Part shown: positions 28,867 through 59,448 of the stretch, piece by piece
How positions within the stretch are numbered: position 1 is the first letter of the stretch
Layout: each line of letters begins with the position of its first letter
Assembly: GCA_009773315.1 (NCBI GenBank)
Contig: WRPE01000005.1
Location: 1-64,000, forward strand
From: Syntrophaceae bacterium
GTDB lineage: Bacteria > Desulfobacterota > Syntrophia > Syntrophales > Smithellaceae
Direction of reading: 5' to 3'
DNA: 64,000 bases
The notes under the pieces: model-generated
What the model saw: only the letters and a program-made list of their open reading frames with translations
Database searches by the model: none
What the model was told of the DNA's origin: nothing
Program-made: the position numbers and the translations under genes

Positions 28867-28880
28867 GATTGGTTTAGAAT

Positions 28881-38107: not shown

Positions 38108-38809
38108 TCATGCCAATTCAAGAAGTCCTTTCCGAAAATCATACAGCACTCCGTCTGCTTGAAGACAACCCGTCATAAGCCATTGCACCCATTCGTCTAG
38201 AATTTTCAAGGCGTCACTTCCCAAGCAGAACGGTGTGCATTCATATGCTTTTTGATCCGTACCAATGGGTTGAATGTGGTCCAAACGCAAAATGGAGGAA
38301 TTAGTTTTCTCCGGTAATTTATCCCACATGTACTGGGGATATTCGCACTCTTGGACTCGTTTTACAAAATCCGGATTCCAGCCGCCCGTTTTTCCGGAGA
38401 ACTCTGCGCCATAATAGGGCGCAACTAAAATGTATGGAAGAAACTGCCATGCCGCACCACCAGCCCGCTGGCGCTTCGGGACTTCAGGAGGTTCAGAACC
38501 AACAACCAGAACGGGATGTTTTTTCATGCGATACACAGCACGAACTTCGCCGGCATAAGAGGGTAATGCGGCAATAGGAAGTTTGGGGTATTCATGCAGC
38601 TTCTTTATCTGTAGGGGCTCAATTTTGTAGTTGGCCTTGGAATGATCCATCGGAGAGGATCGCCCCTCAGGCACCAGGATCATGGGTTGTTGATCCATAT
38701 GAGGAATGAAGGCCCATAAGAGTCTTCCCCTGCGCAGATCGCAGGTATTGTCATTAATCCACCAATCGTCAATGAAATATTGAATCGAATGTTCAGAATA
38801 TTCCTTCAT
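38108..38809 (-). CDS. Unknown protein, candidate toxin partner of the Panacea-type antitoxin
   Basis: I do not recognise this 233-aa protein. It is Trp- and Pro-rich, without signal or membrane segments. Its C-terminal half (LPYILVAPYYGAEFSG, then SILRLDHIQPIG) vaguely recalls PemK/MazF-like SH3 barrels, which is only an impression. The start is taken as ATG 38809 (MKEYSEH); the gene then overlaps its upstream neighbour by 17 bp, which indicates coupling. Position directly after a DUF4065 protein suggests a two-gene toxin-antitoxin-like pair at the tail of the BREX-like operon. Confidence 0.6.
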   Translation of the reverse strand: MKEYSEHSIQYFIDDWWINDNTCDLRRGRLLWAFIPHMDQQPMILVPEGRSSPMDHSKANYKIEPLQIKKLHEYPKLPIAALPSYAGEVRAVYRMKKHPVLVVGSEPPEVPKRQRAGGAAWQFLPYILVAPYYGAEFSGKTGGWNPDFVKRVQECEYPQYMWDKLPEKTNSSILRLDHIQPIGTDQKAYECTPFCLGSDALKILDEWVQWLMTGCLQADGVLYDFRKGLLELA

Positions 38810-39596
38810 CGGATCTCGCCCGGGATTTCCATATTTCATCCGAAAAAATGATTTCGCCGGTACTCGGCAGGATAGGTGCGCCCGCCAGTTCATCAAGCCA
38901 GGCAACTCCATCAAAAAAGATGTCATCGTATCTCGGAGCGGGTTCCGGTCTTACCATTTTTTGATTCCGCTCCTTTTCCGCCAAACGGCTTTTAATTCTT
39001 TCTTTTAATATCGCCAATTGTTCTTTCCTTTGCTTCATTTCCTTTTTCGAAAGTGCAGCTGTCTGCGGTGCCTCTACACTCTTCTCTTTTTTTGAATCCA
39101 TCGTACCTTGGTCTTGCGGGCGCGTGAAGGAAAGTCGCTCAAGGGGTGCTGCGTGCAGCATCGGCCAGGTGGTATAGACATGGTGCAAGAGGCCCGTTGT
39201 ATCATCGCCAAATTCATGGACTGCATCCCTTATGGCGTGACGCACCTCAAAGGGCAACAAAGATTGTAATGATTCATACAATTCGTCATCCTGTAATCTC
39301 CACCGCACAAAGTCCGACTTGTATTTATAGGACGTTATTGTTCGTTCCGTTGCGTTGACATCCTGAACAACTGTTTTTATTCGTGAATAAACATCTGGTG
39401 ACCAAGGACCATAGTGATAGAATTGCCATTCTGCGCCGGTTAAAGTCTCACCCTCATGAGCTTCCGCGAAAGCTAAGTCCGCCAGATAGACGTATTTCAC
39501 TATATGGATGGGACCAAGCTCCTGGTTCCCAAAATCATCTTGGCCAGCTGCGGCAAGGATATACTTCACTATGAGATCAATTTTTGCTGTATCCAT
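38793..39596 (-). CDS. DUF4065 / Panacea (SocA-like) antitoxin-type protein
   Basis: A 267-aa protein whose N-terminal 150 residues have the DUF4065 pattern: HIVKYVYLADLAFAEAH and WQFYHYGPWSPDVYSRI. In characterised systems this domain is a promiscuous antitoxin (PanA). The C-terminal part is a charged coiled coil (KKEMKQRKEQLAILKERI) followed by an acidic tail. It lies 55 nt after the brxL-like gene and overlaps the unknown downstream gene, its likely partner. Confidence 0.72.
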   Translation of the reverse strand: MDTAKIDLIVKYILAAAGQDDFGNQELGPIHIVKYVYLADLAFAEAHEGETLTGAEWQFYHYGPWSPDVYSRIKTVVQDVNATERTITSYKYKSDFVRWRLQDDELYESLQSLLPFEVRHAIRDAVHEFGDDTTGLLHHVYTTWPMLHAAPLERLSFTRPQDQGTMDSKKEKSVEAPQTAALSKKEMKQRKEQLAILKERIKSRLAEKERNQKMVRPEPAPRYDDIFFDGVAWLDELAGAPILPSTGEIIFSDEIWKSRARSDEGIF

Positions 39597-39651
39597 TACG
39601 CCACTCAGTATATAGGTTTTGCTCTCGTGTCAATATTTCCTTCTTAATCGG

Positions 39652-41631
39652 TCAACCATTTTTCACATAGGTTATCATCGTCGCCTTGCAGCGGCGCTTG
39701 GTCTGATCGACGAAGCCAAGCGTGAATTTTCCTTCCGGTTTTTGGAAGATATCCAATCCGCGGCCAAGGATGATTTTCCATCCCGTGTCGGCTTCAATCG
39801 AGCGGTCGTGTAAGCCTGTTTCAAAACGATAGGTAAGGCTGATGCGATCTTGGGCAAGGCTTTCTTTGAGTTCCTCCAGCTTTGCCGAGGCATCTTCTTC
39901 CTGTCTTTTGGCATCTGATCCCGTCACGAGTTCAATCGCTAATCCTGTCTCTGAAGAACTTAAGCCCTCACAGAAATTAAGAAAATTGTGAATTTGATAG
40001 TCATAACGGATAAAGGGGTCAACCAATCTGATAATTCTTGCCCCTTTCAAGTAGGGGTTGAACAGCCGGACGTATGAAACCCCGCGCTGTCCTTCGTTAA
40101 TGTTTAATGTGGTCTCAATAGGTTTTCTGTCTGTTGACAAGCTGTCAGCCGGTTCAGCTACTTTTTCCGGCTCAGGTTTTTCTTCGGGATGAGACATCTG
40201 AAAATCATCCGGCTGTTCGCTCTTTATCGTGACCCATTGATATTCTTGATCCAACCTGGCCAATTCATCCCGAATTTGTTGCCGCATCCGAACAGCTGGA
40301 TTGACGCAATACTCGACAAATTCTTCATCTGTAACCTGCAAATCGGGGAACAATAGTTTAAGAAAGCCCTCGGCAATCCGAGCGACAGCCTTGTGATCGC
40401 GCATATCATCACAGGAGGGAAGACGCATGCTATGGGAGACATAGTCGGCATATTGCAGATCGCTTCGCAACTCATGGAGGACTTCGCTGAAAAAGTCTCC
40501 TTTGAATCCCAGGCTTTTTGAAGGCGTATTCTTCGTGATGCGCGGCATAAACCACCCCTCAAGCAGACCATGCAAGCGATCCACAAAAGCCGATTCCTGA
40601 AGGGATGAAGGCAGTTCCTTGAAAATGCCATTTGTTTCATAGAGGGGCCGTCTATCGGGGCCAATGGTAATATTGCCCAGAATGGCGAAGCCGCATTCGG
40701 CTGTACCCATATCGCCGGTGGCCCTGCGATAACGGCCGCTTTCCAAATACATCTTAAGCGCCGCCATTGCCTCTCCGGCCGCATCCGTGTGGATCTTCTG
40801 AACCTCATCAATAACGACCACGTCATATCTGGGTATCAGTCCGAGCTGTTTGCTCTGACTGTTAAAGAACAAGGTAGGTGCGGACAGTTTACCTCCCGGG
40901 ATAACAGCGGCATACCGACTAATATTGTCAAAAACAAAGGATTTTCCTGTGCCTTTAGGGGCGAGCTCGGCAAGGTTGATCCGCGGCTGAACCAAGGGAA
41001 TGATACGGCTAAGCAAAAGCATCTTCTGGGGGAGGGTGTGCGTATCTGGATTAAATTGACAGCTCGATATCAACAAATCGATCCACTCCGGGAGAGTGAA
41101 ATGTTTTCGACAGTCCCGGAAATATTTCAGATCCACCCCGGGACTCTGAAACGGTTTAAAATCTACCATCCAGATCTGTCCCTTTTTGACTTCTTCCCCG
41201 TCGGGCGGGACATAGCGCAGGGTGCCAAGTCCCCACATGCCTGTCTTGAGTAGCATCTGATTTTCATCAATGATGCCCTTTTGAACCATAGCGCTATTTG
41301 TATCCAGCACAGGAATACTCAATTCATGGGTATTCCTGGCGAGGTTGACGTTGACCCGAAAGTCGTCAATAATCTTCACTTCTTCCTGTTCCTTCAAGCG
41401 ATTGAGGAGGATGTTTTTATCTGCCTTCTGCGGCAGATAAGAGGATACAATCTTGATAATTTCCTCACGTCCGCCTTCTGTCAATACATCTTCTGCGAGG
41501 AATTGGCTGATGATCCATTCACCCACATACACAGGGATAGCTCGTGCCCCGAAACCGGCTTTTGACATCAGTCCCTTATTGATGACCACCTCTCCGTAGT
41601 AGTCTCTCGCTTTTGTTTCAAATGATTTCAT
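39652..41631 (-). CDS. brxL: BrxL-like AAA+ protein with MITD1-like (MIT_C) C-terminus instead of Lon
   Basis: A 659-aa protein. Residues 1-160 match the BrxL N-terminal region (YYGEVVINKGL, IPVYVGEWIISQF). The ATPase has Walker A ELAPKGTGKSFVFDN and Walker B DVVVIDEVQKI. After a charged linker, residues about 505-659 do not look like a Lon protease. They resemble the phospholipase-D-like C-terminal domain of eukaryotic MITD1: LVDPFIRYDYQIHNFLNFCE, HDRSIEADTGWKIILGRGLD, then FTLGFVDQTKRRC. In BREX, BrxL is a DNA-binding AAA+ factor needed for phage exclusion. It lies 16 nt after pglZ in one operon. Confidence 0.85.
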   Translation of the reverse strand: MKSFETKARDYYGEVVINKGLMSKAGFGARAIPVYVGEWIISQFLAEDVLTEGGREEIIKIVSSYLPQKADKNILLNRLKEQEEVKIIDDFRVNVNLARNTHELSIPVLDTNSAMVQKGIIDENQMLLKTGMWGLGTLRYVPPDGEEVKKGQIWMVDFKPFQSPGVDLKYFRDCRKHFTLPEWIDLLISSCQFNPDTHTLPQKMLLLSRIIPLVQPRINLAELAPKGTGKSFVFDNISRYAAVIPGGKLSAPTLFFNSQSKQLGLIPRYDVVVIDEVQKIHTDAAGEAMAALKMYLESGRYRRATGDMGTAECGFAILGNITIGPDRRPLYETNGIFKELPSSLQESAFVDRLHGLLEGWFMPRITKNTPSKSLGFKGDFFSEVLHELRSDLQYADYVSHSMRLPSCDDMRDHKAVARIAEGFLKLLFPDLQVTDEEFVEYCVNPAVRMRQQIRDELARLDQEYQWVTIKSEQPDDFQMSHPEEKPEPEKVAEPADSLSTDRKPIETTLNINEGQRGVSYVRLFNPYLKGARIIRLVDPFIRYDYQIHNFLNFCEGLSSSETGLAIELVTGSDAKRQEEDASAKLEELKESLAQDRISLTYRFETGLHDRSIEADTGWKIILGRGLDIFQKPEGKFTLGFVDQTKRRCKATMITYVKNG

Positions 41632-41647
41632 TGCCTTGCCTTTCTTA

Positions 41648-44038
41648 TTATAGATCCGTCAAACTGAACCCGCCCGTTAGAGCTGATCGGAATTCCGCTG
41701 CTGTTTCTATTTTCATAACCCTCTCTTCTCCGGCTATTTCATAGGCGCATTGCACTATCAGCGATTCCTGACTAATGGCGGATTTGTTGAAATAGCAATC
41801 CAATTGAATGGTCGTGGTTTTCTCTTTTATCAAGACGGGAATTACCTGCCCTTTAATCTCCGCGATAGGTTTCACGACCGTCATGCGCAGGATTCGGATA
41901 TCTTCCGGATTAGGGTTCAACATCTCTATCCTTAAAGGAGTGATCCGCTGAATGTGAAAAACCGCTTTACCCGATGCAGTATCCACTCTTAAGTCCAAGA
42001 AACGTGCTTTCGGCGCATTCCAGGCAGCCTTCACAGCTTTAAAGAAAGCCGCCGGGACGATCACCTCCTCCGGTGTGGCGCCCCCGTGCGTATATCCCTT
42101 CCCCCTCTTACCGGCGCGAACGGTATGGTGGCCTCGTGGAATAAAGAAGACATTGTCGCCGATCGTAAAGGGTGGGATAAAACGGTATCCTAAATCCCAA
42201 AGATTCGCCGGCACTGCATCGGCAATGCCTTTTTCGATCACGGCAAAGCGGCGGCGTTCATCAGGAAATAGTTTATTCAGCGTCTTTGACTCGAATGCCT
42301 GAGCTTCACTATCCAAGATGAAACAGGCGCCATGGTCTGTCAAGACATAGAGACCGAAGGATTCTCTTTGGCCAGGGCAACGGTCCAGGAGCGCGGCGAC
42401 CGTGTCACTCACCCGCATGAACAATCGATGGAGTTCTCCCTCATGGGTCTCACCTTTCGCTTCCGGATCGCCATGAAGTATCTCATCGCCGGCAAGTAAA
42501 TTGAGGTAAAGAACCGTCGGCTCGGTGGGCGCTGAGAAATCAGCAAGCTTTTTTAGATCCGACAAGTAGATGACTTTCTTGCCATCCCAGTCATTCGCTG
42601 CTCGTTCATGGAGGAGCGCGTCATAAGACTTTGGCGGAGAGTTCCAGGCCCCACTGAACAGAGCCGGTTTCACAAACTCCGTATCCGTTGGCAGGGGCGC
42701 AAAGCGATACGCCAGGGCATGGCGATTTAAACCCGTTTTCCGCAAGGCATCTTCAAATATCGGCCAGAATGTTACCGGAAGCCCATCTGCCAAGATGATC
42801 AACGAAAGCGATTCACTGCGGATAGAATCGCGAAAAGAATGGAGGGTATGAATCGAGCTTATTTCAGCGTTCTGATGAACAGCCGCATAGTCTCGGATAT
42901 ACCAATCCGTAAATAATCGCACGGCCTCCTCCACATCTTCATCATAGTGGCTATTTTTCGTCTGCCAATACCGATACGGCAAGTAGGAATCCACTGCCCA
43001 GGCTGCCCACGCCGATGGACTATTCAGCGAATCCTTATCCGGTAGAGCCGGTTTGGGTGGCACCACCAGGTAATCAAGGGTTGTCAACTCGGTAGTTTCT
43101 AACCCAGTACATTGTCGGAATTTTTCCTTCACGGTGGCAATATCTTGCGCTACCGGGGCAAACCGGCCGGCTTTCAAAAGGCTTTTTACCAGCTTGAATT
43201 CCAAAATCAGTAGTCCAGAGGCAACCTTAACTACTTTTTGAAAGGCATTGCTGGAATCAACTTCCTGAACGATGTCCTTAAAGAATAATGCTATTTGTAT
43301 CGCCGCTTCTTCAATGGCTAAAAGCTCCAGGGGAAGATCCTTCAATAACGCCAGAGGGATGCTCCGTAAAATGTTTGCCTGCTGCAATGATATGACATAT
43401 TCAAGAAGTTTAGGAGGGTATGCTCCGAGCAGTACATAAAGGCTCATGTCCCGCCATAGATTTTCCGCCCGACTGATAAGCACGGGTAACAATACCTTTT
43501 CCCAATCCTGATCGGCATGCGAAAGCCAGATTTCCCCTTGCTCAAGCAAACAACGGGAAAGAAGAGGATAACGATCAAATACACTTTTCGCTTCCTCGCG
43601 GTAAAGAGCGGGCACTATTTCGGCAATACGGCTTCGATCGAATTGATTCCCGCGAAATGAAGGCCCTAAGAGATGGACCAGGAGCGCTTCTGCAAAAGGG
43701 CAGAGCTTTTCATTCTTTACATCCAAATCGAGAAGCTTTTGCGATACAACGTCCTCATCCGTTAACCATTCCGGCAAGGTAACATTCCACGTCTCAGAAA
43801 GGATGAGCCGCGCCGTTTTCTCAACACAATCAAAGGGCAATTGGATCTGCTCGCAAAAATGCTGCAGCCAGGCAAAGAGATAACGCTTCCGTACCCAGAT
43901 TTTCAGAGATTTATTCTTGGATACTTGAGCGATAAGGGCGTGACAGGCTTTCACGTAACCCGCCTCCCCCTCTGCCAGAAAAACGCCCTCAGGCAAGACA
44001 TGGCTATAGTCGCCAATGTAGCTGATTTCAAATTTCAT
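41648..44038 (-). CDS. pglZ: PglZ-domain alkaline-phosphatase-superfamily protein
   Basis: A 796-aa protein with an all-helical N-terminal half and a C-terminal PglZ domain, the hallmark of BREX/Pgl systems. Metal-site-like segments are SLIILADGLPVTFW (about residue 405) and YVLTDHGACFIL (about 575). Between them is the family-like AYRFAPLPTDTEFVKPAL. PglZ proteins are predicted metal-dependent phosphatases or nucleases, essential for BREX. Its ATG overlaps the brxC-like stop (ATGA), so the two are translationally coupled. I cannot place it firmly in a numbered PglZ subtype. Confidence 0.85.
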   Translation of the reverse strand: MKFEISYIGDYSHVLPEGVFLAEGEAGYVKACHALIAQVSKNKSLKIWVRKRYLFAWLQHFCEQIQLPFDCVEKTARLILSETWNVTLPEWLTDEDVVSQKLLDLDVKNEKLCPFAEALLVHLLGPSFRGNQFDRSRIAEIVPALYREEAKSVFDRYPLLSRCLLEQGEIWLSHADQDWEKVLLPVLISRAENLWRDMSLYVLLGAYPPKLLEYVISLQQANILRSIPLALLKDLPLELLAIEEAAIQIALFFKDIVQEVDSSNAFQKVVKVASGLLILEFKLVKSLLKAGRFAPVAQDIATVKEKFRQCTGLETTELTTLDYLVVPPKPALPDKDSLNSPSAWAAWAVDSYLPYRYWQTKNSHYDEDVEEAVRLFTDWYIRDYAAVHQNAEISSIHTLHSFRDSIRSESLSLIILADGLPVTFWPIFEDALRKTGLNRHALAYRFAPLPTDTEFVKPALFSGAWNSPPKSYDALLHERAANDWDGKKVIYLSDLKKLADFSAPTEPTVLYLNLLAGDEILHGDPEAKGETHEGELHRLFMRVSDTVAALLDRCPGQRESFGLYVLTDHGACFILDSEAQAFESKTLNKLFPDERRRFAVIEKGIADAVPANLWDLGYRFIPPFTIGDNVFFIPRGHHTVRAGKRGKGYTHGGATPEEVIVPAAFFKAVKAAWNAPKARFLDLRVDTASGKAVFHIQRITPLRIEMLNPNPEDIRILRMTVVKPIAEIKGQVIPVLIKEKTTTIQLDCYFNKSAISQESLIVQCAYEIAGEERVMKIETAAEFRSALTGGFSLTDL

Positions 44039-47000
44039 GAATCACTCTTCCCTACCAGATTTTCATGAATGGCCTTTACCAGCTTTTCCCTGGCTTCTAT
44101 TGATAGTAGGCCCTGTGCAACGCCCTGTTGCAAAAGTGACTTCAGGACGGCAACTAAACCCTCGCGACTATCGGGAAACTTAAATGAAGCTTTTTTGTTT
44201 CCAAAAAGATCCCTATCCACGGCAACTTCATATTTTTTTGCTTTGTTGACCACCTCAATGGCAACCACATCGCTTAAGTTGCCATGCTCGTCCCGAGCGC
44301 GCATTTTGACAATGACACTTGCCTTTTCTTTTACAAAATCGGAAAGATCCATTTCTTCCTTGACGCGTAAGGCAGTTTCTGAATTTTTAGGATCATCCCC
44401 TGTGATGGTGTAGATCATTTCTGCGGCGCCCTTAGGTACGAAAATAACCGGCTTTTCGCCTTCGCCGATTTCATAAGTTTTTTTGGCTATTTTAGGAATG
44501 GGAACATCGGGTTTGGCCTCGTCTATTAAGACCTTGGCCTGCTTAATTTTTGCCACATAATCCGCTGTTTGGACAGTCGTCCAGTCTACCACTGGTGTAA
44601 ATCCATACGCCTCGGGCAGTTTTTTGTAGAGTCGCGTCTTCATGTCATCAGATTTGGCCAGTTGTGAAAGCAACCCGTAAGCTTCACCTTCATCATATTT
44701 CGATGGGTCACGCTGGTTTGGGTTCAACCCTTTGTACCACTTATCAAGAGCGGCCTCGCATTCCACAACATCACCCGTTGCATCAAAGACTTTACAAACT
44801 GCCTGGGCAATGGAATTTTGAAGACTCTGAAGCCCGGCATCAAAAAGTTTGACGTCGGAAGCGAACGCCTCACCAATGGCCTGAACATTCTTTTCCAAAA
44901 GATTATCTCCGGCTGGCTCATTGCTATACAGGGATGGCAGTCCATGCAAAATAAGATCAAAGCGTTCAATGTGCCCAGCATCATCAAGCAATGCTTTCAA
45001 CTGCTTCAATCTCGGCTGTTCTTTCTTTTCATAGAGATCCACAATCCTGGCTGCCTTGGGAAGTTCTCGCCACCATGTCTTTACCAGTTCTACCGTTTTT
45101 TCAACGGAGCGGACTTCACCGTGCTTCAGAGCCGGCGCATGAACCGCCTTGGCAACGACATCCACCAATTTGCGCTGAGCTTCTGAAATCTGGAAAACCT
45201 CCACAACGACCTTTGTGGCCGGGTCCGCCACAATTTGAATGACGTCTTCATAAGTCCTGATATTCTTTTCCACAGTTTTTGTCGTGTCGGTATATATTCG
45301 CAAGCTCTCACCAAAAGCGCGGAGCACATGCGCAAGAGCAAGAGTCTGAGCTGTCCCGCCGGCACCATAAGGCGGTTTCCCGACATCGCAAAGGAAATTG
45401 CCCAATGCCAGCATTTTGCCTGCCGGCAGGCTTTTAAGTTCCGTGCACAATGCCTTCAGCACAGGGTAGTTATCTGAAATCTTACCGGGGTCACTTTCAC
45501 AATCAAAATACGTTACTGTTCCTTCCTTTCCAATCATTCTTAGTGCGCCCGCGCCCTTTAGAAGAACTTTCTCTAAGTAGCGCTTTTCTCCGTGATTATC
45601 AGGGTTCCCATTGTCAATCATCACCCGATCCGATTCGAGCAATACCTTGACTGCCTGCTTCAATGCATTGTTCTTGCCTGTTCGCCATTTATCATCATGG
45701 CAGGTATTCAAGTCGGGGTGACTTATGCGACAGCGTTTCTTATATAGATTTTCGCAGAGCTGGTCTGCCGGGCGGTGTGGCTGAGGAGGCTGGTCCACTA
45801 GAACCTGCTCATCCTTCCCATACCAGCATGCCTTTTCGCCGCTTGAGATGTCCCGGAGTATCCGTTGCAACTGGACACGGTAACCGTCCTCGCCGTTTTC
45901 AAAAATATCGCGCAATCTTGACTCCGTCTGTGCACTAATCTTGACAGCCTCATTCGGAGGCAAGTAATAACGGCAGGCTTTAACACGCAGCAGTGTATCG
46001 ATGAAGGGTTGCGGAGCGTGAGGAATCGCGACGGCTATGTTCTCATTGGGAACGTCCTTGACAGCGTTTCTGGCAATTTGAATATCCGTCTCGTTCTCAC
46101 AAAGGGCATAAATAACCGTTCCTTCGCTTCTATTCTTATCCTTGGCCAAGTCCTGCTCACATTCCTGCTGGATATCTTTCCAAAGCTTTTTTCCAATGTC
46201 CTTCGGACGAACAAAACGCCTCTGAAACCTTTTGTCTTCACTGAATGCCAGGTTAAACTGCTTGGCATAGAGGAATTCAAGTTCCTGGGGATCACCAGCC
46301 TCCGCAAGCAAGGCTTCGATCTCGTCTTTGGGATGGAGAGACTCATCAGTCAAAAAGCGGTCAATGAGGTCGTAGGGGTCTTCTCCTGTGCCTGCGGCAA
46401 GCTCGTATGTTTTGGATTGCTGCCGGAAAAATATCGCCCCAGTCTTCACGAGGACCTTCAGATGACTCTCCATCTTTTTCTTTTCAACTGCGGAAAGACA
46501 GTAGATGCCAAACTGTAGATTCTCCAGGTTGGTAGGAATTTGACAGAGCTCATAGATGAGGATGGTTCGTAGAATTACGAGGCGCTCATCCATCAGATCA
46601 CCGAACATATCACCCTCGTCGACCTTCCTAAGCGCTTCAATGCTGGCGTAGTAACCATTTACGAGCTGGCGCTGCCGTTCACGCAATTCTGTATTTTTCA
46701 GGGATAGCTCCTTCTGAAAGAAGCCAAATAATTGATCCACAACATAGAGATTAAGTTTGCCGCCGCTAATAGTGATATCCGACTTGGCAATGAAATCGGC
46801 AAACGACCCTTCCGCACCGCCGACATCCCCGGAAAAGAAGGTGAACGTGCTGCGAGCGTCTGATCCTATCTCGGAAGAGAGTTTCAAAAGACAGGCCAGA
46901 GCCATGGGATGCATACCGTAGATATCTTCCAGAACCTTTTCTCGGATTTTCTTCATGTCCTCAAGCCAGGGGAAAAGTTTCAGAGAAGTGCAAACCGGCA

Positions 47001-48078: not shown

Positions 48079-48224
48079 TTGATTCCTCATAATGTGGCGT
48101 TATTAATGACCGTCTTATCCGCGGCGCAATTGGCATTAAATAACACGATATAATATCGAGTACTTAAAAAATTGCATTACGCCGAACTTACGCCGTAATT
48201 GCGCCAATCCCATGCAAAAAACTA
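48079..48224 (-). promoter_or_regulatory. Structured control region before brxC
   Basis: This 146-bp gap holds a perfect palindrome CGATAT-A-ATATCG (48146-48158), arms GGCGCAATT/AATTGCGCC (48123/48197), and three copies of the motif TTACGCCG or its complement (about 48177, 48188, 48224). The arrangement looks like an operator/promoter for the brxC operon, separating it from abiEii. Confidence 0.5.
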
Positions 48225-49840: not shown

Positions 49841-49873
49841 GGCAAACCTCCATTAAAGTTAATTTTCGCAGAT

Positions 49874-49892: not shown

Positions 49893-49958
49893 TTTTGCAA
49901 ACGATAACTTTGCCATTGAGGCGATTCGGGGATCATTGTTTGCAGCGGGTATTTACTC

Positions 49959-50462: not shown

Positions 50463-51591
50463 AGTTTTTTACCGCATACCCGGCAGCAGACAGATAATCA
50501 TCGATTGCGGACCGATCGATCTCCATATACTCGGCAAACAACCCTCGTGAAATTTTCCCCTCCATCAGGCAACGGCAAGCAAGAGAAACGTACCGTTGCG
50601 GGAACTTCTCCGGCTGATGCTCTTCATACAGCCCCCGGCGCAGGCCTCGATCCATGTTCCGAAATTCGGCATCACCGAGAATTTTTTCGACCTGGCCTTT
50701 CTTAAGTTTTTTGAGATTGACAAGCCTCCACAGAACGGCTTCCGAAGAAACGCCGAACTCTTTCGCCAGTTCGATGATGTCAACCAACTTCAGTTCCTGA
50801 TTCACCGCGATTTCCTTTAGAGCAGCAAGCAGATGTTCCTTCGGCAGGAGCAAACTCGCCGCAAAGCTATCGGCAAATTGCTCCGGCTTCGTTTTACGTG
50901 TCCCGTCTCCGATTTCCTCATGCGAGAATATTTTCCACGTGACGATGTGGAAGAGCTCATGGGCGAGATCGAAATTCCGCCGCCATGGCGCATCATGGAG
51001 ATTGATGAGGATGCCCACGCCAAGGGCGCTGTCCACGATGCTGGCGCCGGACAAACCTTCTCCCAGGTCCAGATGAATAACTTTGAAACGAAGCGTGTTC
51101 TCCAGGATGTTCAGAAGATTGCAGGCTGGGCGTGATCCCAGGTCAAAGCGCTTATGAATGTCGGCGCCAAGCTTGTCGGCCGCCGAAAATCCGTTTTCAA
51201 TGAAGTCATCACTGTCCAGACTGGTGAGGATTTCTTTCCAGCGCCGCTTCAAGCCGAGGAGATTTTCCAGGCGGCTGTAATTTTCGAGAAAGTTGAGAAA
51301 TTGACGCTGCTCCTTTTGAACATCGCTGCCTGCAGTTCGCCGCCAGAGGGGAACTGGGTCCGATGGGATATTGGCTTCGAAGAAATAATCCAGGGGCCTG
51401 CTGTAAAGACGGGCCATCAAGATGAGCTCGCCGGCGCTGACGTTCCGAGTTCCCTTTTCGACGGCGGAGAGGATCTGGTAATGCTTGAAACCGAGTTTCC
51501 GCGTTGCTTCCACCAGAGAAAAACCAGCATTTTCGCGCGCCTGAGCAAGCCTTTCGTGAAGATTTTTACCCTCGGTATTTGAAGAGTTCAT
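50440..51591 (-). CDS. XRE helix-turn-helix + ImmA/IrrE metallopeptidase, putative antitoxin/regulator
   Basis: A 383-aa protein. Residues about 12-70 are an XRE helix-turn-helix (LAQARENAGFSLVEATRKLGF). Residues about 180-290 are an ImmA/IrrE zinc peptidase with HELFH (an HExxH motif) and EQFADSFAASLLLP. It probably represses its own promoter and is paired with the overlapping PIN-like protein. Start ATG 51591 follows GGGAGG with a 5-nt spacer. Two operator-like palindromes lie just upstream. Confidence 0.85.
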   Translation of the reverse strand: MNSSNTEGKNLHERLAQARENAGFSLVEATRKLGFKHYQILSAVEKGTRNVSAGELILMARLYSRPLDYFFEANIPSDPVPLWRRTAGSDVQKEQRQFLNFLENYSRLENLLGLKRRWKEILTSLDSDDFIENGFSAADKLGADIHKRFDLGSRPACNLLNILENTLRFKVIHLDLGEGLSGASIVDSALGVGILINLHDAPWRRNFDLAHELFHIVTWKIFSHEEIGDGTRKTKPEQFADSFAASLLLPKEHLLAALKEIAVNQELKLVDIIELAKEFGVSSEAVLWRLVNLKKLKKGQVEKILGDAEFRNMDRGLRRGLYEEHQPEKFPQRYVSLACRCLMEGKISRGLFAEYMEIDRSAIDDYLSAAGYAVKNYEKIAAA

Positions 51592-51603
51592 AACCGCCTC
51601 CCG

Positions 51604-51618
51604 ATAAGATTATCTTAT
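51604..51618. promoter_or_regulatory. Operator-like palindrome O1 before the XRE-ImmA gene
   Basis: ATAAGAT-T-ATCTTAT is a perfect 15-bp palindrome directly upstream of the Shine-Dalgarno sequence of the XRE-ImmA gene. It is probably the autoregulatory site of the XRE domain. Confidence 0.62.
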
Positions 51619-51926: not shown

Positions 51927-54062
51927 TCATGGTGTTTTGGCTGGCCCACCTAAGATTTGTAGAATCACGAACAAGATACCGAAAGCCCCAACACCCCAGA
52001 GTGATTTTCTCCAAGGCTTTACAACAAGCCCTACAATACCGAATGAAACCATAAAGCTTAAACATCCCTGTAAACCATAGCTGTTGGGATGGCGCAATAG
52101 CCAATCCCATCGCCAGGCACTATTAATCACGACTAAAAAGATCAGACTCGTAAGTAATGCAATAATGATACTGGAAAATTGCCGAATGCGAAGTGCTTTT
52201 AGCTCTGCTGTTCGGGCTTTTTCCTGTGCATTATCCTTGGCGATAGTGAGTTCTTCTGCTTCCTTCTTTTTTGCATTCAATAATTCATATGCTTTGGCGA
52301 TTTCTATAGAAGTCTCCTGTTTCTGTTGTTCCAGATCTTTTTCAACCCGCCCTTTATCAGTTGTTAACAAATCTATTTGTTTTGCCAAAGCTGCGCGTTC
52401 TTCAATTAGTGTTTGATTCTCTGCCGAGATGGCTGAATCCACCAGTTCTTGAAACTGTTCATCATTATCAACCGCACGTAATCGGTCGATAAGTAAATCA
52501 TTGGAAAGCAATTTAGCAGCCGTTTCTTCTGGGAAATCCTTGTAGCATGCAAGAAGATTAAGCATTTTTGAGCAAGCTTTAACAGCACCGCTTCCAATAG
52601 TTCTGAATTCCGGTATTGCGAATGTTTCAGCGAATGACTTGTCAAAATCCTGACTTGCAGGGATAAATGGACGGAGTATTTGCCACAAGACATTAGGTAA
52701 AACAACTGATCCATATGATTTGGATCTTCGGCTTTCATTGCTATCGAAACGATATAACGTATAGTCACATGTTAGAAGCAGGGCACCAGCATTAATGGTC
52801 GATTTGGTGCTTTTTCTTATTGACCGGACGCAATCAAGGACGGCCACATCATGGATTATAGATCCATCAGGTTTTTTCTTATAAATGCTTTCCAAAAACT
52901 TGATATAATTCTCCTGAAGTGTGCCTCGCTCAATTAGCCTATCCTCTAAAGGTTTATATTCATCGATCCCTTTTCCTTTCAGTAGGAGATCAATATGCTG
53001 GTACGGCCGCAAGAAAGAATCGACATCAATACCAGTTTCAACATTTTTCTGATGGTACTTTAGTGCAATACCTGAGATGTAGGGAGATTTCATGGCTGCT
53101 CTGCTTAGTGATTGTGGCCAGTGGTTTTTTTTCAATTCACCAGCATAATAGTTAATCGTATCAATCGCTTCCTCTAGAGTTCTTTCGTGGTATTTCAAGT
53201 AAAATGGAAGCTTATTGTCAGAAATTACTTTAAGTAAATTATGGGAAACTTCCACTTGCGAGTTGACATGAATATCAAGGATACCAAAAAGGAAGTTGGT
53301 GTCACAGAATATTACGAGTGGACTCAAATTCTCACGATAATTATTGGCAACATCTGGTGAAACCATCAAAGAGAAGTAGTTGAAAGCACCATCCGCACAC
53401 TCCGCAATATATTGTGTCCGATCCGGTTTATTACCTGCTGCAGATAGAAACTCCACAATTGCCGCCTTCGCAGTAGGCCAGTGCTTGCTATCAAAATGCG
53501 ACTTCACGGCATCTTTAAGCATAAGCGATAGGCTTTTAGAGTATTCCTCCGGGAGTTCTACTGAAGAATCGAGAAAAGCTACGGCCTGAATCCCATGGCG
53601 CAGAAATGCTTTTGCCAGGTACGCCTGTAAGGCATCCCACGCCGCATCACTAGGAAAATCAACATACTTTTTGGAGATCTCCATCATCCATTCACCACGA
53701 ATCCGTTTTTGTAAACATGACGCCTGTTCAATTTGGGCTTGAACGTTCATTCGCGATTCATCTGTGAGAACATAATTGGTTCCCAAAGGCTTGTGTATTC
53801 GACCATCTTGAATCAACCGATCCAGCGCCTCCTGGATTTGATGATTCGGAGCATCAATCCCAAACATCGTTGAGAGGACACCTGCTATATCATTTGCACT
53901 GCACAGGCTATCTCCTTCAAATGCAAGGATAGTATGGACAATTAATTCTCTGAGGCTCTCTTCAGGTGAACGAATATTTGAAATGGCCGCAAAACTACAC
54001 ATCTGTTGGAAATTCGTACTTGCTACCGAGATGCGAATAGTTTCTACATTAGGTTGCGTCAT
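51927..54062 (-). CDS. Membrane-anchored PIN-domain protein of the island
   Basis: A 711-aa protein. An N-terminal winged-helix-like region (about 40-105, DIAGVLSTMFGIDAPNHQIQ) is followed by a central PIN-like nuclease fold: LVIFCDTNFLFGIL (about residue 260), IIHDVAVLDCV and LLTCDYTLYRFD. A coiled coil follows (about 545-625, VEKDLEQQKQETSIEIAKAYEL), then three hydrophobic helices at the C-terminus (IIIALLTSLIFLVVI, LSFMVSFGIVGLVV, GAFGILFVILQIL). It is therefore probably tethered to the inner membrane. AAGGAGG precedes the start; it lies 27 nt after the methyltransferase gene, probably in its operon. Not a known BREX component. Confidence 0.68.
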   Translation of the reverse strand: MTQPNVETIRISVASTNFQQMCSFAAISNIRSPEESLRELIVHTILAFEGDSLCSANDIAGVLSTMFGIDAPNHQIQEALDRLIQDGRIHKPLGTNYVLTDESRMNVQAQIEQASCLQKRIRGEWMMEISKKYVDFPSDAAWDALQAYLAKAFLRHGIQAVAFLDSSVELPEEYSKSLSLMLKDAVKSHFDSKHWPTAKAAIVEFLSAAGNKPDRTQYIAECADGAFNYFSLMVSPDVANNYRENLSPLVIFCDTNFLFGILDIHVNSQVEVSHNLLKVISDNKLPFYLKYHERTLEEAIDTINYYAGELKKNHWPQSLSRAAMKSPYISGIALKYHQKNVETGIDVDSFLRPYQHIDLLLKGKGIDEYKPLEDRLIERGTLQENYIKFLESIYKKKPDGSIIHDVAVLDCVRSIRKSTKSTINAGALLLTCDYTLYRFDSNESRRSKSYGSVVLPNVLWQILRPFIPASQDFDKSFAETFAIPEFRTIGSGAVKACSKMLNLLACYKDFPEETAAKLLSNDLLIDRLRAVDNDEQFQELVDSAISAENQTLIEERAALAKQIDLLTTDKGRVEKDLEQQKQETSIEIAKAYELLNAKKKEAEELTIAKDNAQEKARTAELKALRIRQFSSIIIALLTSLIFLVVINSAWRWDWLLRHPNSYGLQGCLSFMVSFGIVGLVVKPWRKSLWGVGAFGILFVILQILGGPAKTP

Positions 54063-54089
54063 CAAGCGATCCCTCCTTATTCGAAATGT

Positions 54090-57000
54090 TTACAATAATA
54101 ATGTGGCTATGCGGTCGTATTCCTCCAGGCATTTGCGTTTGGACATGAATTCGCCGAAGGCTTGTTCTTCTTTGCGTTTCAGGACGGGGAAGGTGTCGAG
54201 AATGTAGGCAAATTCGTCACGAGACAGACCATAGAGATGGGCGACGCAGGCGTCAATTTCGGCCCGTAACTGGGCACGGTCTCCCGTGTCCCTCCGGTCG
54301 GGAGTGCGCTCATGGACACCGCAGGCGGTTGACCATTCCGGGGTCAGATTGGCGGCTTCCTCGTAAAGGCGACGACGGGTTTCCTGTTCGTGCTGGGGGC
54401 CATAGGTAAATTTTGCTTTTCCATCTGATGGGTACCAGAAGGCTGCATCCTTCCATCTATCTATTTGAATTTCCTTCCACAATTCTGAAAAGCGCTCATC
54501 TATACAGGTGAGGCGAGCAGTGCGTGCGGTAATTTCTGGATGGACGGGGCTGTTTTGCAGTTGTGGAAGCGGTAAATCCATATAAGTCGTGCTCAAATGA
54601 CTGGTCGTTTTGATCCGCGTGAGAAAATCGAATACGAAAGAGTTAACGACACCGCCCCAAAAGCAGATCTGTGACAAAGGATAGACGTTTTGAATGATTA
54701 TATTGTGGCCAGACAACCTCGGACAGTAATGTTCAAACGTCCTAATAGTATATGAATGAGGGGATGGTTTTGGCAATATAGCGGCAATAAAAGTACGTTC
54801 ATTCGTATCGGCAGCAACCTCTCTGAAGGCCAATCTGTATCGCTCAGGTGCCAGATCAATCTGGCCGTCTTTCGTTATTTTGAGAATGTCAATCTTTGAC
54901 TTCTTTTCAAGCTCCGCAACTCGATTAACGGAATCTTTTGAATAAAAAAGCCGATAGGCTGTTGGTTTTAAATAATGACTGGGCGCAGCAAAGTCACAAT
55001 CAAAATGCCAGATCATTTTCCCTTCAAACAGTTGTGGTCCACCTGTTTCACATGGCGAAAGACTTTCGGTGTGAGAAGTCAAGTCAATTTCCCGTGCCAC
55101 TGTTAAATTCAAATCTGGACCGATAAGGGGGAACGTTTTGTAGATATTGAGTGAAATTTTTAAGTCCTGCTGGCTTTTGAATTCCATGACGCTCAGGGTT
55201 TCGGGCGAGAATTTGCGGACGTGATCTAACTGCATCTCCAGCGCCCCGGCGTCGATGACGGGCAGGCGTTCCGGGTCGTGTTCCATGAAGGCGCAGCGGA
55301 AGGCCTCTGTTTTACCTCCCTTTTCCGTGCAGAAAAGGATGAACTTGAAGCGCCCGTCCACGGCAGTGAAAACCGTCGGCCAGCGGTTCTCAAAACCATA
55401 GAGGCAACAGATGCGGCTCTCGTTGAAAAAAAGCTCTCGCAACGGCTGACATCCCTGGTCTGTATAGAGTCCACTGGGCGTTACGATCCCCAGGCAGCCG
55501 CCCGGCCTGAGAAGAACGAAGAACCGCTCCAGAAAGAGCTTATAGGTGTTGATGTCCCCTTTGCCCAGGGCGCGGTAGGCGGCCGGCTGCCGAACATATT
55601 CGCTTTGCTGTTCAAAGTCCAGGCAACAGGTCTCCCACTTCCTGCGGATGGGCGGGTGTTCCGCCATGAGGTGTTCGGCTACCCGGTTGGCCTCCTGTTT
55701 CGTGTAACTGCGGAAGGCACTATCATAGGCGGAGAAGAACTCCTGAGAATTCGGTTTAAGGATATCCCAGGGCGGATTGCCGACGTCGGCGTCGAAACCA
55801 CCGTTTTCCTCGTTGAAGACCTCTGGAAACTCCAGCGGCCAATGGAAAAAGTGATGCCTACCCGCAAGGACTTTCGCCTTATCATCCAGTTCCATTTCGG
55901 CGATCGATGCCGGGGCTTCACCCTGTGCCAAACGCAGGAAGAGTCCATGATAATCATCTGGGTTTACTGCGCTGTCCATGAGATAGGCTGTGAAGAGATC
56001 CGCCAAGGGCAACAACGGGTTGATTCTTTCGCGCCGGGTCTCTTCATGGATCTCCTTCTGGCGATCCGTATCGTCCTCTGCAATCTGTGTGATGGACATC
56101 ATGTCTCGGGCGGCTTTTTGAAAGGCCTCCGTCAGTGTTTCAGGAAAAGGTAAGTCCTGCAGTTTCTTATCTTTCTGAAGCTTCTTTTTGGCATCCTTGC
56201 TACGTTCCGGGATTCTCTGCAATTGGGCAAGGTGTCGGATACCGATAAGGCTGTTGCCGCATCGCAGATGATGATCGAGAAAAGTCAATTTGTGTTCCCG
56301 GGCGAAGCAATTGAGCCACAGAGAAAGCTTGGCCAGGTGGACGGCAAGGGGATTCAAATCCACACCGTAGAGGCAATGTCGGGTTATGAGCCGCCGCCAG
56401 TGATTCGGGGCACAGGTCGTCGGCGAGGACATTCCCTCAACATCAGGGATTTCAGCAAGAAGGCTGACAATCAGATCGGTAATTTGGTCTGCGGCGTTGA
56501 CAAGAAAATGGCCGCTTCCCATACCGGGATCGCAGAGTCTGAAGATAAGGACGACTTCCTTGACGAAGCGTTCCACCAGGGCAATTGCCGACTGGGCTGC
56601 CCCACGCCGGACAGCCACATCATGCCCTTCTTGGGTTTCCCGGATAAAGAGATCGAAGCGCTCCCGGTAGTCCTGGGCGAAACGATCCTGCAGTGGCTGA
56701 ATGACCGTTTTTCCGTTGAGAAATCGGACCAGACTCTCCGGCGTGTAGTAAGATCCAGTCTGCTTGCGCTCCAAAGCGGACTCACCAAAATAAACATCGC
56801 CTTTTTTAATGAGACTGTCGCTCGTTTGGCGGGCAGTTTCCGAAGCCAGCAGGTTTTCTATGCCTTTCTTTGTCCGGCGACGAATACGATCCGCATCGGC
56901 TAAAGTGACATTAAATTCGAGAATATTCTCGTACATTTCACCTAAGTGACGCACCTCCAGATTGCGGTAGGGGATGGGGTATTCCTTATCCGGATCTGAA

Positions 57001-58115
57001 TCATAAGGATCTACATAGGCCATCAGATAGAGGGCGCGAGCAAGAAAGTCATTTCTCAGTTGCTGTTTCCCCAGAAATTTCTCTTGCTCATCATCAAACA
57101 GACCGCCATTATATCCCATGATTCCATACTCCGGATCGCCGTCGTTGACTGCATGGATCAGCCCTTTGAGGTGTTTCCAGAGATCATATCCTTCATGGTC
57201 TGTCCGGATTCCCCACCGGAAACGATGGGCCTCACGGCAGAGGGCCTGAATGGAATGCTTGGCATAAATCTCCTGCTTTTCCACCTGGGACGGCAGAAGG
57301 CTGCGGGACTCGGCGTAGAAGAGGAAAAGGCAACGATAGAGCAACTTGACGGCGCTTGCGAATATTTCCCCTCTCTCCTCCTCAGTGTATTCTTCACCTT
57401 TGCGGGGAGTATCCGCGATGAAACCATTACAAATATACTGGAGGGCTTCGTCAATCTGCTGGAGAAGCGGGGATTTCACTTTATCCTCGAGGAGCTTCTC
57501 AGATGCCGCCATGTCCTTGTCCAGAGGGCAAGTATAAACGCCGAGGTTGCGGGCGTCTTCCTTCCGTCCATCTTCTTTGTCCCCCGCTTCCGGCGTGAAG
57601 GAGTCCATATGGAAGAATGTCTCAAACAGGGCGTACTCTCCTTCATCATTCTGCGCCAAAGCCTCGGCAAGATTGAGTTCCACATATTCCTCAAATGGCT
57701 TGCCGGTGCGGTTTGTATAGAGGCGCCACCTTTCCCCATTCGTCAGGAGCCCCCAAGTCAGCTTGCGATGCCGCAGTTGCATGATCAATCTCGCCGGCCA
57801 GAAACGCCCGACCGAAGTATCATCCATATCCGCCCCCGGTTCTATGAGATAGAGAACTGCGACGCAGTTGGAATAATTGTAGTCCTCATACAGGGGATAA
57901 ACGCCGGGATTATCTGTACTGACCGGAGGGACAAAGGAAAGATAACTGAGAGCCTGTTTGATATAGGTATTCCAGAGAGACTTTAGATTGGTCCTGTCGC
58001 AATTCTTCCAGGTATGAGCAAGGGTCGCCATGCGGCCCTGACCGGCGTCGTCCAGTTTTGCTTCGGAACGGATTTTATCGATAAAAAGTGTGCTGAATAA
58101 TCCGTGGTTTCTCAT
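54090..58115 (-). CDS. Type-IIG-like adenine DNA methyltransferase (PglX-like role)
   Basis: A 1341-aa Eco57I/type-IIG-style protein. The N-terminal part resembles a nuclease domain (WGLLTNGERWRLY), but where active enzymes have ExK this reads LYLIEPGAD, so cleavage is probably lost. The methyltransferase has Q-x-TGSYYTPESLV, motif I CDPGMGSGHFLVNA and motif IV VGNPPWDIL (NPPW, adenine-N6 type). The C-terminus holds a target-recognition region. In BREX, PglX methylates host DNA at a non-palindromic site. The start is ATG 58115 after GAGGAGATT; upstream codons in the track are shadow. Confidence 0.82.
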   Translation of the reverse strand: MRNHGLFSTLFIDKIRSEAKLDDAGQGRMATLAHTWKNCDRTNLKSLWNTYIKQALSYLSFVPPVSTDNPGVYPLYEDYNYSNCVAVLYLIEPGADMDDTSVGRFWPARLIMQLRHRKLTWGLLTNGERWRLYTNRTGKPFEEYVELNLAEALAQNDEGEYALFETFFHMDSFTPEAGDKEDGRKEDARNLGVYTCPLDKDMAASEKLLEDKVKSPLLQQIDEALQYICNGFIADTPRKGEEYTEEERGEIFASAVKLLYRCLFLFYAESRSLLPSQVEKQEIYAKHSIQALCREAHRFRWGIRTDHEGYDLWKHLKGLIHAVNDGDPEYGIMGYNGGLFDDEQEKFLGKQQLRNDFLARALYLMAYVDPYDSDPDKEYPIPYRNLEVRHLGEMYENILEFNVTLADADRIRRRTKKGIENLLASETARQTSDSLIKKGDVYFGESALERKQTGSYYTPESLVRFLNGKTVIQPLQDRFAQDYRERFDLFIRETQEGHDVAVRRGAAQSAIALVERFVKEVVLIFRLCDPGMGSGHFLVNAADQITDLIVSLLAEIPDVEGMSSPTTCAPNHWRRLITRHCLYGVDLNPLAVHLAKLSLWLNCFAREHKLTFLDHHLRCGNSLIGIRHLAQLQRIPERSKDAKKKLQKDKKLQDLPFPETLTEAFQKAARDMMSITQIAEDDTDRQKEIHEETRRERINPLLPLADLFTAYLMDSAVNPDDYHGLFLRLAQGEAPASIAEMELDDKAKVLAGRHHFFHWPLEFPEVFNEENGGFDADVGNPPWDILKPNSQEFFSAYDSAFRSYTKQEANRVAEHLMAEHPPIRRKWETCCLDFEQQSEYVRQPAAYRALGKGDINTYKLFLERFFVLLRPGGCLGIVTPSGLYTDQGCQPLRELFFNESRICCLYGFENRWPTVFTAVDGRFKFILFCTEKGGKTEAFRCAFMEHDPERLPVIDAGALEMQLDHVRKFSPETLSVMEFKSQQDLKISLNIYKTFPLIGPDLNLTVAREIDLTSHTESLSPCETGGPQLFEGKMIWHFDCDFAAPSHYLKPTAYRLFYSKDSVNRVAELEKKSKIDILKITKDGQIDLAPERYRLAFREVAADTNERTFIAAILPKPSPHSYTIRTFEHYCPRLSGHNIIIQNVYPLSQICFWGGVVNSFVFDFLTRIKTTSHLSTTYMDLPLPQLQNSPVHPEITARTARLTCIDERFSELWKEIQIDRWKDAAFWYPSDGKAKFTYGPQHEQETRRRLYEEAANLTPEWSTACGVHERTPDRRDTGDRAQLRAEIDACVAHLYGLSRDEFAYILDTFPVLKRKEEQAFGEFMSKRKCLEEYDRIATLLL

Positions 58116-58122
58116 AATCTCC

Positions 58123-58593
58123 TCAAGTGAGTGCGAGGGTGTCCCGCTGGTCAATGACAAACTGGTATTGCTTGAATCGGTCAAACTTCTGCGCTGCAAG
58201 GGATCGGTCAAACTGCATGGCGAAAAGCAGGGCGGGCTTTTTGTCCCACGTCTCGATTTGCTGGGCAAACTGCTCCAGGACACCAGCTTGACCCGTCCAG
58301 GTTGCCTTCAAAAATTCCATGCCGGATATGATGAGTATTTTTTTATTATCGCCGCGCTCTGCAAGAAAACGAAAAAGGTCGTTGATAGAAAAGGTTCCAA
58401 CATTTTCAGAAAGCGTCTCATCTTCCGCAAAAACATCTAAAACATGCAGATGGGCGGCGACGGCTTGCCGCGCGAGTTCGGCGGCCCAGGATTCTTGTGA
58501 TAGATAATCGTGAGTGAAAACGATGCAGGCTCTGCCACGAGGGCGCTTGGGAAGAGATTTTGTCAGTTCAACAATGTCCACGACTTTATCCAA
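58123..58593 (-). CDS. Small protein of the BREX-like operon (P-loop remnant? BrxF-like position)
   Basis: A 156-aa soluble protein without clear family. ILIISGMEFLKATW could be a Walker-B-like strand and FRQYQFVI-type endings recall small STAND/BrxF proteins, but no Walker A (GxxxxGKS/T) is visible. It starts with TTG 58593, directly after the previous stop (TAATTG), with GGAGG 8 nt upstream, so it is real and translationally coupled. It probably acts with the DUF4007 protein and methyltransferase. Confidence 0.6.
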   Translation of the reverse strand: MDKVVDIVELTKSLPKRPRGRACIVFTHDYLSQESWAAELARQAVAAHLHVLDVFAEDETLSENVGTFSINDLFRFLAERGDNKKILIISGMEFLKATWTGQAGVLEQFAQQIETWDKKPALLFAMQFDRSLAAQKFDRFKQYQFVIDQRDTLALT

Positions 58594-59448
58594 TTAGCCG
58601 ACCTCCTTTTGCCTGGATTCAGGGCTGGCGCCTTCGTAATACCACTTTAGAAAGGTAAAAGCGGATAAGCCGTCCAAGAGACGAACCTGGTCAAGATGGT
58701 GTGTACTTTCATATCGCACCCATCCGTTTTGATGCAGCGGCTCTACAGCTTGGCGAAAGGTGGATTCATCAAAGCCGAATAAAAGGGAAGGCGACCCCTC
58801 TGCCTCTGCGATTTCCCGAACCTGCAGAAGGCTCTCCCCGCGCGTGGCGGCATAATCATATATCATGGCACTGAGGATGAGAGGCTCTACGCGCAGATGG
58901 CGCGTCCGGTATAACCGTCCATCGCTATGCTGGTGAAGGATTTCCAGCTTCTTAAGGTTTCTATTCAGGTAGGCATCTATGACGAAACGAACCTCCTGCT
59001 GTAGGTGCTTGCCGATGGTTCTATCGGTATATTGACCGGAAAGGGTAGTTCTTAAATTAGCCAACCAGCCGCTTTCGGTTATAGCCTGCTCTGCGGGAAG
59101 GATCGAGTTAAAGATTTCGTACCAGACGAGATTCTTGGAGCTACCTGCGCCCCGGTAATGGCACCATTGGAGGGTGCCGATCCTTTCCAGAAAGATATCG
59201 TGTGCGGCAATCAGTTCACCTGTCTGTGTCAGGGTTTGCATCCCTGGCTTAATCAGTCCCAGCGCACAACCGATACTCACGACACTTTCTATCTGGCGGT
59301 TAGACAATCCTGTGCTTTCTTGGATTGCCTCACGATAGATCCGCTTCATTGATGGGTTGGACAACAAAAAGTGCAAAACGCGGGACAACTGATCGAACGC
59401 GAAGAGATAACCATTGCTGAGCTGGAGTTTGCGGATTGGTTGAACCAT
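58594..59448 (-). CDS. DUF4007-family protein
   Basis: A 284-aa protein matching the DUF4007 pattern: a winged-helix-like N-terminal (LSNRQIESVVSIGCALGLI), LTQTGELIAAHDIFLERIGTLQWCHY, and VWYEIFN. The family is found in DNA-modification-based defence loci (Dnd and BREX contexts); its biochemical role is not known. The start is taken as ATG 59448 (MVQPIRKL) after AAAGG with a 6-nt spacer; the track start at 59541 lacks an SD. It is the first gene of the modification arm. Confidence 0.7.
   Translation of the reverse strand: MVQPIRKLQLSNGYLFAFDQLSRVLHFLLSNPSMKRIYREAIQESTGLSNRQIESVVSIGCALGLIKPGMQTLTQTGELIAAHDIFLERIGTLQWCHYRGAGSSKNLVWYEIFNSILPAEQAITESGWLANLRTTLSGQYTDRTIGKHLQQEVRFVIDAYLNRNLKKLEILHQHSDGRLYRTRHLRVEPLILSAMIYDYAATRGESLLQVREIAEAEGSPSLLFGFDESTFRQAVEPLHQNGWVRYESTHHLDQVRLLDGLSAFTFLKWYYEGASPESRQKEVG

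Follow-up and report, generated by a model that had tools for sequence, protein, structure and literature searches.

The stretch of DNA analysed here (the window: 64,000 nucleotides, positions 1 to 64,000 of contig WRPE01000005.1 from a Syntrophaceae bacterium) probably encodes a methylation-based bacteriophage exclusion (BREX) phage-defence system belonging to a subtype that has not been named yet. The locus is best described as a variant of BREX rather than a new kind of system, in which the functional roles of BREX type 1 are filled by parts resembling those of BREX type 4 and of the Ssp system. Positions 38108-59448 hold thirteen intact genes, all on the minus strand. The six core genes are listed below in the direction of transcription.

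58594..59448, minus strand: DUF4007 protein, 284 aa, putative SspB-like/BrxA-equivalent DNA-binding component (PF13182, 6.8e-15; the open reading frame (ORF) reaches 59541)
58123..58593, minus strand: 156-aa protein of predicted AAA+/STAND fold with eroded P-loop, candidate BrxB-like inactive STAND (iSTAND) protein (AlphaFold2 model, predicted local distance difference test (pLDDT) 94.8)
54090..58115, minus strand: N6-adenine DNA methylase, 1341 aa, BrxX/PglX role (Eco57I-type, PF07669, 2.6e-21)
44035..48090, minus strand: BrxC/SspC-like AAA+ ATPase, 1351 aa (PADLOC SspC 5.9e-34, BrxC 1.3e-12)
41648..44038, minus strand: PglZ, 796 aa (family profile against PorX structures 7.8e-13, against a PglZ structure 0.009)
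39652..41631, minus strand: BrxL, 659 aa, with a C-terminal MIT_C/PLD-like (HKD-type) domain (PF13337, 1.7e-99; PF20442; PF16565, 2.1e-43)

Occurrence and inheritance of the six-gene set

Genome contigs were scanned with a BrxC profile, and family hidden Markov models (HMMs) were then run over the ORFs of the 74 loci obtained; ~40 relatives emerged. The scan used two peptide patterns, and the counts are therefore lower bounds; most loci lie on contigs of metagenome-assembled genomes (MAGs), where single taxon labels, such as that of a Thermococci MAG (L041), need care. All six families are found together in 22 loci including the window (20 by ORF; tblastn adds L011 and L019, whose genes the ORF filter had missed), spread over at least 10 phyla and often contiguous. 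The two arms of the locus, DUF4007 to methylase and BrxC to BrxL, which the initial annotation had joined into one system, thus do co-occur elsewhere. Loci of this six-gene type are referred to as the M clade. Those short of a gene either reach a contig end or are visibly decayed: in L037 BrxC lies in pieces beside a SocA relative of the window's, and in L043 the methylase occupies two frames, BrxC is a fragment, PglZ was not found and BrxL is intact.

Three gene orders recur. In order A (DUF4007, small protein, methylase, a slot, BrxC, PglZ, BrxL) the set is found in the window, in Thermodesulfobacteriota, Planctomycetota, Acidobacteriota, Hydrogenedentota and others. Order B (methylase, DUF4007, small protein, BrxC, PglZ, BrxL) occurs in Paenibacillus, Clostridium, Rubrobacter, Abditibacteriota and part of the Chloroflexota, and on an Abditibacteriota plasmid the six genes are contiguous. 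Order C (DUF4007, small protein, BrxC, methylase, in some cases a further gene, PglZ, BrxL) is found in Anaerolineae. The system is also carried by named isolates, namely Pelolinea submarina MO-CFX1, Leptolinea tardivitalis YMTK-2, Clostridium homopropionicum DSM 5847 and Paenibacillus macerans MER 50.2, which makes methylome and phage tests practical.

When pairwise distance matrices are compared between families, all 15 pairs of the six correlate with r 0.90-0.97, and 0 of 999 permutations were as high in each. Such correlations arise from shared descent alone and hence show inheritance as a unit, not that the proteins interact physically; clades in which phyla are mixed suggest that the unit has also been transferred as such. 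Given the conserved synteny and shared inheritance, chance neighbourhood was dropped as an explanation.

The same observations bear on the idea that two independent systems, a solitary type-IIG-like restriction-modification unit and a BREX fragment, happen to adjoin. In the window the arms are 6.0 kb apart, with toxin-antitoxin and PIN genes between them, and the best PADLOC match of the methylase is REase_MTase_IIG. Yet six-gene operons are contiguous in Abditibacteriota, Paenibacillus, Clostridium and Chloroflexota, methylase and brxC are separated by only 176 bp in L018, and the alignment of the methylase N-terminus showed no PD-(D/E)xK motif, which together make this idea extremely unlikely. 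A type IIG restriction enzyme was likewise rejected as an identity for the methylase, no nuclease motif being visible in its aligned N-terminus; the “type-IIG-like” label that the enzyme had first received thus denotes similarity and not a demonstrated nuclease. The two operons initially described need a correction as well: they run in the same direction, and relatives have the six genes either side by side or with nothing but cargo between them.

Components of the system

The DUF4007 protein matches BrxP (3.5e-10) and SspB (2.3e-09) in PADLOC, and M-clade loci hold 27 relatives that are 240 aa or longer; its profile has no matches among PDB sequences. The end of the locus at 59448, as first annotated, is likely the true start of this gene; the corresponding methionine is where its relative in L010 starts.

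For the small protein, a Foldseek search of the PDB places AAA+ ATPases at the top (probability ~0.99, E ~1e-3, template modelling (TM) score ~0.4-0.5), matches to a predicted model that would establish the fold class only. The P-loop is intact in 5 of the 26 family members and eroded in 21, including the window. The predicted AAA+ fold is consistent with the iSTAND class to which BrxB is assigned in a recent survey of BREX systems (Rakesh and Krishnan; PMC12839542). There, the BrxB equivalents across BREX are considered inactive STAND proteins and DUF4007 the BrxA equivalent. Read in this way, the locus would fill all six type-1 roles. The arm that the initial annotation had placed where brxP or brxA, brxB and pglX would be does seem to cover the roles of the latter three with DUF4007, the small protein and the methylase; in these terms the gene set is not an unknown one.

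The methylase has conserved motifs I (DPGMGSGHF) and IV (NPPW), and all M-clade sequences aligned over these parts have the S-adenosylmethionine (SAM) motif I and the catalytic NPPW/NPPY. Its true start is likely at 58115, with GAGGAG ahead of it. Fold searches with the N-terminus gave weak matches, to the type IIG enzyme BpuSI (E 0.39) and to HsdR, and no claim is built on these. The enzyme reaches 48.3 bits against the BREX-1 PglX model NF033452 (cut-off 500) and 19.4 bits against the MADS MAD2 model NF047738 (cut-off 720). In the Anaerolineae loci L031, L035, L036 and L044, a protein of 471-553 aa with a weak methylase-profile match is encoded downstream of BrxL; the copy in L036 has DUF4268, and the protein is possibly a specificity or nuclease part.

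Walker A is present in 33/33 M-clade BrxC sequences. The BrxC profile has no matches among PDB sequences, and the window's protein scores 11.3 bits against the BREX model NF033441 (cut-off 400). PglZ matches PADLOC weakly (5.9e-07) and stays below the type-4 model NF033445 (28.4 bits, cut-off 140) and the type-1 model TIGR02687 (20.4 bits, cut-off 270). Its T453 and H651 align with the catalytic residues T538 and H741 of Escherichia fergusonii PglZ, where mutations lead to lost or reduced nuclease activity (PMC12205998), and both are kept in all 29 M-clade PglZ sequences. BrxL passes its model TIGR02688 (437 bits, cut-off 329). The MIT_C domain spans residues 517-657 in the window; a tail of this kind, with a conserved HDR...GRGLDIF block, is found in orders A and C and is absent from most order-B loci and from type 4. 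A BrxL gene without BREX lies on a Thermus oshimai plasmid (L088, 15049-16584), near MoxR, vWA, TROVE, tubulin-like and RecQ genes.

Relation to known defence systems

BrxC-type ATPase and PglZ together, the combination by which the survey delimits the BREX superfamily, are both encoded in the locus, in agreement with the first description of it as BREX-like. PADLOC 2.0.0 and the NCBIfam protein models give no type assignment.

In the phylogenetic trees, M-clade sequences were compared with type-1 plasmid loci (L084, L085, L087, L089, L090) plus L009, with type-4 loci (L086, L077-L080, L083) and with Ssp loci. All 33 M-clade BrxC sequences fall on one side of a branch with a Shimodaira-Hasegawa-like approximate likelihood ratio test (SH-aLRT) support of 100, apart from type 1, type 4 and Ssp. 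The 31 M-clade BrxL sequences group together with support 98, apart from types 1 and 4, and the 29 M-clade PglZ sequences also group together, with the long-branch L052 falling among them.

BREX type 1 (brxA brxB brxC pglX pglZ brxL) would share all six functional roles with the locus; both have an N6-adenine methylase alongside BrxC, PglZ and BrxL, and an HKD-tailed BrxL is also present in the type-1 references L084, L087 and L090. In type 1, however, BrxA is a DUF1819 protein, whereas DUF4007 takes this role in the window; the BrxB-like protein of the window has no detectable sequence similarity to DUF1788, its BrxC is closer to SspC, its methylase scores far below the PglX cut-offs, and the proteins form their own clade. 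With BREX type 4 (brxP brxC pglZ brxL) the locus has the core of DUF4007, BrxC, PglZ and BrxL in common, but it carries a methylase in place of the 3'-phosphoadenosine 5'-phosphosulphate (PAPS) reductase and a separate small AAA-fold protein, and its BrxC and BrxL clades are separate. The Ssp system (sspB sspC sspD) shares an SspB-like DUF4007 protein and an SspC-like ATPase, whereas the window lacks SspD/PAPS reductase and has PglZ, BrxL and a methylase. BREX-related capture (BRC) systems, as the survey describes them, have PglZ, a BrxC-like ATPase, a STAND protein and DUF4007 in common with the locus and differ by HerA/FtsK and, in part, TGT/GNAT, instead of which the window has a methylase and BrxL; the HMM scan matched no gene of the locus to a HerA/FtsK translocase. 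The hallmarks of BREX-related type 3, a DUF499 ATPase and an SF2 helicase, were not found in a Pfam scan of the locus, in which BrxC had no match to DUF499 and no helicase appeared. PADLOC found no match to drmABC of DISARM, and only the methylase resembles DrmMI.

A sulphur-based type 4 system is contradicted by the lack of the corresponding chemistry. The PAPS-reductase motif SGG[KMR][DT]S is present in no M-clade locus, and no PF01507 (PAPS reductase) protein is encoded in the window's genome (2.98 Mb, 86 contigs, completeness 100) or in genome G154, which carries the relative L010; in the control searches 14/14 genomes were positive and BrxP references were found at 6.2e-27 and 6.4e-30. 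It could be argued that the locus is a phosphorothioate type-4 BREX with its PAPS reductase elsewhere and the methylase an unrelated neighbour, as SspC and type-4-like models give the best scores for BrxC and PglZ, and DUF4007 resembles SspB and the C-terminus of BrxP. Against this stand the missing PF01507 protein, the presence of a methylase in every locus with enough contig, its distances tracking those of BrxC (r 0.953), and the separation of M-clade BrxC and BrxL from type 4. We regard such an arrangement as highly improbable, and the remote-reductase version of type 4 was dropped.

It is also unlikely, though less so, that the locus falls within one of the named subtypes, type 1 or type 4, with the models missing it through divergence and the survey perhaps having binned it there. 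Its functional gene set would equal that of type 1, and 406 of the 457 type-4 taxa in the survey have a PAPS reductase, leaving ~51 without, whose content lies beyond the main text; some M-clade loci may therefore already be counted there, unnamed. On the other side, type-4 BrxL is described in the survey as being without a C-terminal domain, which most loci here have (often as MIT_C), BrxC, PglX and PglZ all stay far below the cut-offs of the NCBIfam models for types 1 and 4, and the BrxC and BrxL clades are separate. No description of a methylase on a DUF4007/SspC-like chassis was found in the literature, including the main text of the 2026 survey, in a search that covered neither the survey's tables nor most subscription papers. 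The statement that no known BREX type has this gene set thus holds for the HMM libraries and literature searched.

Several points weigh against a separate methylating subtype. The type-4-like L052, on a long branch, groups with the M clade in the PglZ tree, and the trees, obtained by quick searches, have long branches separating the types, such that the separation is relied on and the sister type is not. The PDB fold matches of the small protein do not pass E 0.001, profile-profile comparison (hhalign) with type-1 BrxB gave no sequence support (probability 0.1%), and the equation of DUF4007 with BrxA rests on the survey's published model.

Some further loci combine related parts. In Frackibacter sp. 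(L052), the genes directly behind an Ssp-like set with PAPS reductase encode DUF4007, a small AAA protein whose P-loop is intact, another BrxC, PglZ and a cut BrxL. In L055, DUF4007 and a 1438-aa BrxC precede a set of PAPS reductase, DUF4007 and BrxC, with no PglZ in view. Within the order to which the window's organism belongs, genome G109 (L008; L092, L093) has a BREX locus from the other sub-clade, close to those of the Anaerolineae. A separate contig of G109 encodes a PAPS reductase and has a DUF4007 match ~3.5 kb from it; the two are perhaps an Ssp set. Locus L009 of genome G073, from the same order, is type-1-like, with a methylase, PglZ and an HKD-tailed BrxL, and lies near Methylomonas L084 in both trees.

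Proposed mode of action

From characterised type-1 BREX we infer complex formation, self methylation and restriction. Type 1 is characterised by self DNA methylated at a non-palindromic site and by phage exclusion. In this type, methylation is not achieved by BrxX on its own but requires a BrxBCXZ complex (PMC11842806); a BrxB-BrxC-PglZ core switches between idling and restricting states (PMC13326643), and the PglZ nuclease contributes to defence (PMC12205998). By analogy, DUF4007 (BrxA/SspB-like), the small BrxB-like AAA-fold protein, the SspC-like BrxC and PglZ would form a chassis joined to the N6-adenine methylase and BrxL. The methylase, together with DUF4007, would recognise a site, and would have to be complexed with BrxC, PglZ and the BrxB-like protein to methylate host DNA. 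Incoming unmethylated DNA would trigger a BrxC-dependent assembly that blocks replication, and the PglZ phosphodiesterase as well as BrxL, a motor with a nuclease-like tail, may contribute to restriction. The slot between methylase and brxC would house accessory defence genes.

The variable slot and accessory genes

The remaining seven genes of the locus are the following:

51927..54065, minus strand: 712-aa PIN-like protein with C-terminal transmembrane segments, accessory cargo (D255-x-N motif; hydrophobic peaks near 629-652 and 664-708)
50440..51591, minus strand: XRE-ImmA protein, accessory cargo (PF01381, PF06114)
49959..50462, minus strand: 167-aa PIN-like protein, XRE-ImmA partner, accessory cargo (sequence motif only, no HMM match)
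49025..49840, minus strand: AbiEi antitoxin, accessory cargo (PF09407, 2.7e-34)
48225..49145, minus strand: AbiEii toxin, accessory cargo (PF08843, 1.6e-36; the match starts at ORF residue 69, and the true start probably lies inside this ORF)
38793..39596, minus strand: SocA/Panacea-domain protein, accessory (PF13274, 1.2e-06)
38108..38926, minus strand: 272-aa accessory protein without family (HMM searches of Pfam, PADLOC and NCBIfam: no match), by its position possibly the partner of the Panacea protein

Transcription runs from DUF4007, the 156-aa protein and the methylase through the 712-aa protein, XRE-ImmA, the PIN-like protein, AbiEi and AbiEii to BrxC, PglZ, BrxL, SocA/Panacea and the 272-aa protein. 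As all genes are co-directional, with inter-module gaps of 335, 118 and 134 bp, a single long transcript across the thirteen genes is possible.

In order-A loci, the cargo between methylase and brxC is unrelated from locus to locus; it consists mostly of other defence genes or is missing. It contains Schlafen/AlbA genes in L011, L016 and L020; GmrSD in L012 and L014 and its N-terminal domain in L015 (NsnA-like) and L021; OLD-like HEC-01A ATPases in L013 and, by 78% identity, in L014; and a TumE toxin-antitoxin module in L010 and, by identical ORF sizes, probably in L027. L018 has no cargo. The PIN-membrane protein and the toxin-antitoxin genes of the window (PIN-membrane, XRE-ImmA/PIN and AbiE) are thus not core, but occupy a variable cargo slot. 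Type-1 BREX likewise carries accessory genes inside, e.g., the GmrSD homologue BrxU.

According to the initial annotation, the PIN-membrane protein belonged to the second arm, and the modules between the arms might guard against the loss of either. The first assignment does not hold: the 712-aa protein has no relative among the scanned loci, the 154 genomes of the class or the plasmids, and L010, the first relative from the same order, has both arms with other genes between them and no PIN-membrane gene. No HMM matched this protein, comparison with the PDB yielded noise only, and its PIN label refers to the D-x-N motif only. Toxin-antitoxin and PIN genes acting as guards that kill the cell once an arm is lost or inhibited would fit the toxin-antitoxin genes in the slots of L010 and probably L027; yet slot content is unrelated between loci, and L018 and the contiguous operons have none, which renders a guarding function improbable.

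Beyond the locus, a minimal nucleotidyltransferase (PF01909) is encoded at 59755-60078 (minus strand), 306 bp upstream of DUF4007, with no adjoining HEPN partner among ORFs of at least 80 aa. A thiamine pyrophosphate (TPP) riboswitch (65.8 bits) lies at 28873-28978 (minus strand), upstream of minus-strand genes.

Implications

If the locus is the methylating subtype proposed here, it would represent a further branch of BREX, in which a methylase replaces sulphur chemistry on type-4-like parts, and it would offer a testable comparison of the same chassis with different self-marks. The family of the small protein, in which some P-loops are intact and others eroded, may reveal how BrxB-like proteins lost their ATPase function. 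More tentatively, one chassis of DUF4007, a STAND-type protein, BrxC and PglZ might have been fitted with at least three marking chemistries, namely methylation in the present locus, phosphorothioation in the case of type 4 and, perhaps, 7-deazaguanine in that of BRC. Should this be true, the subtype would be the missing link that joins methylating BREX to sulphur-based BREX/Ssp, and the marking chemistry would be exchangeable while sensing and restriction stay unchanged.

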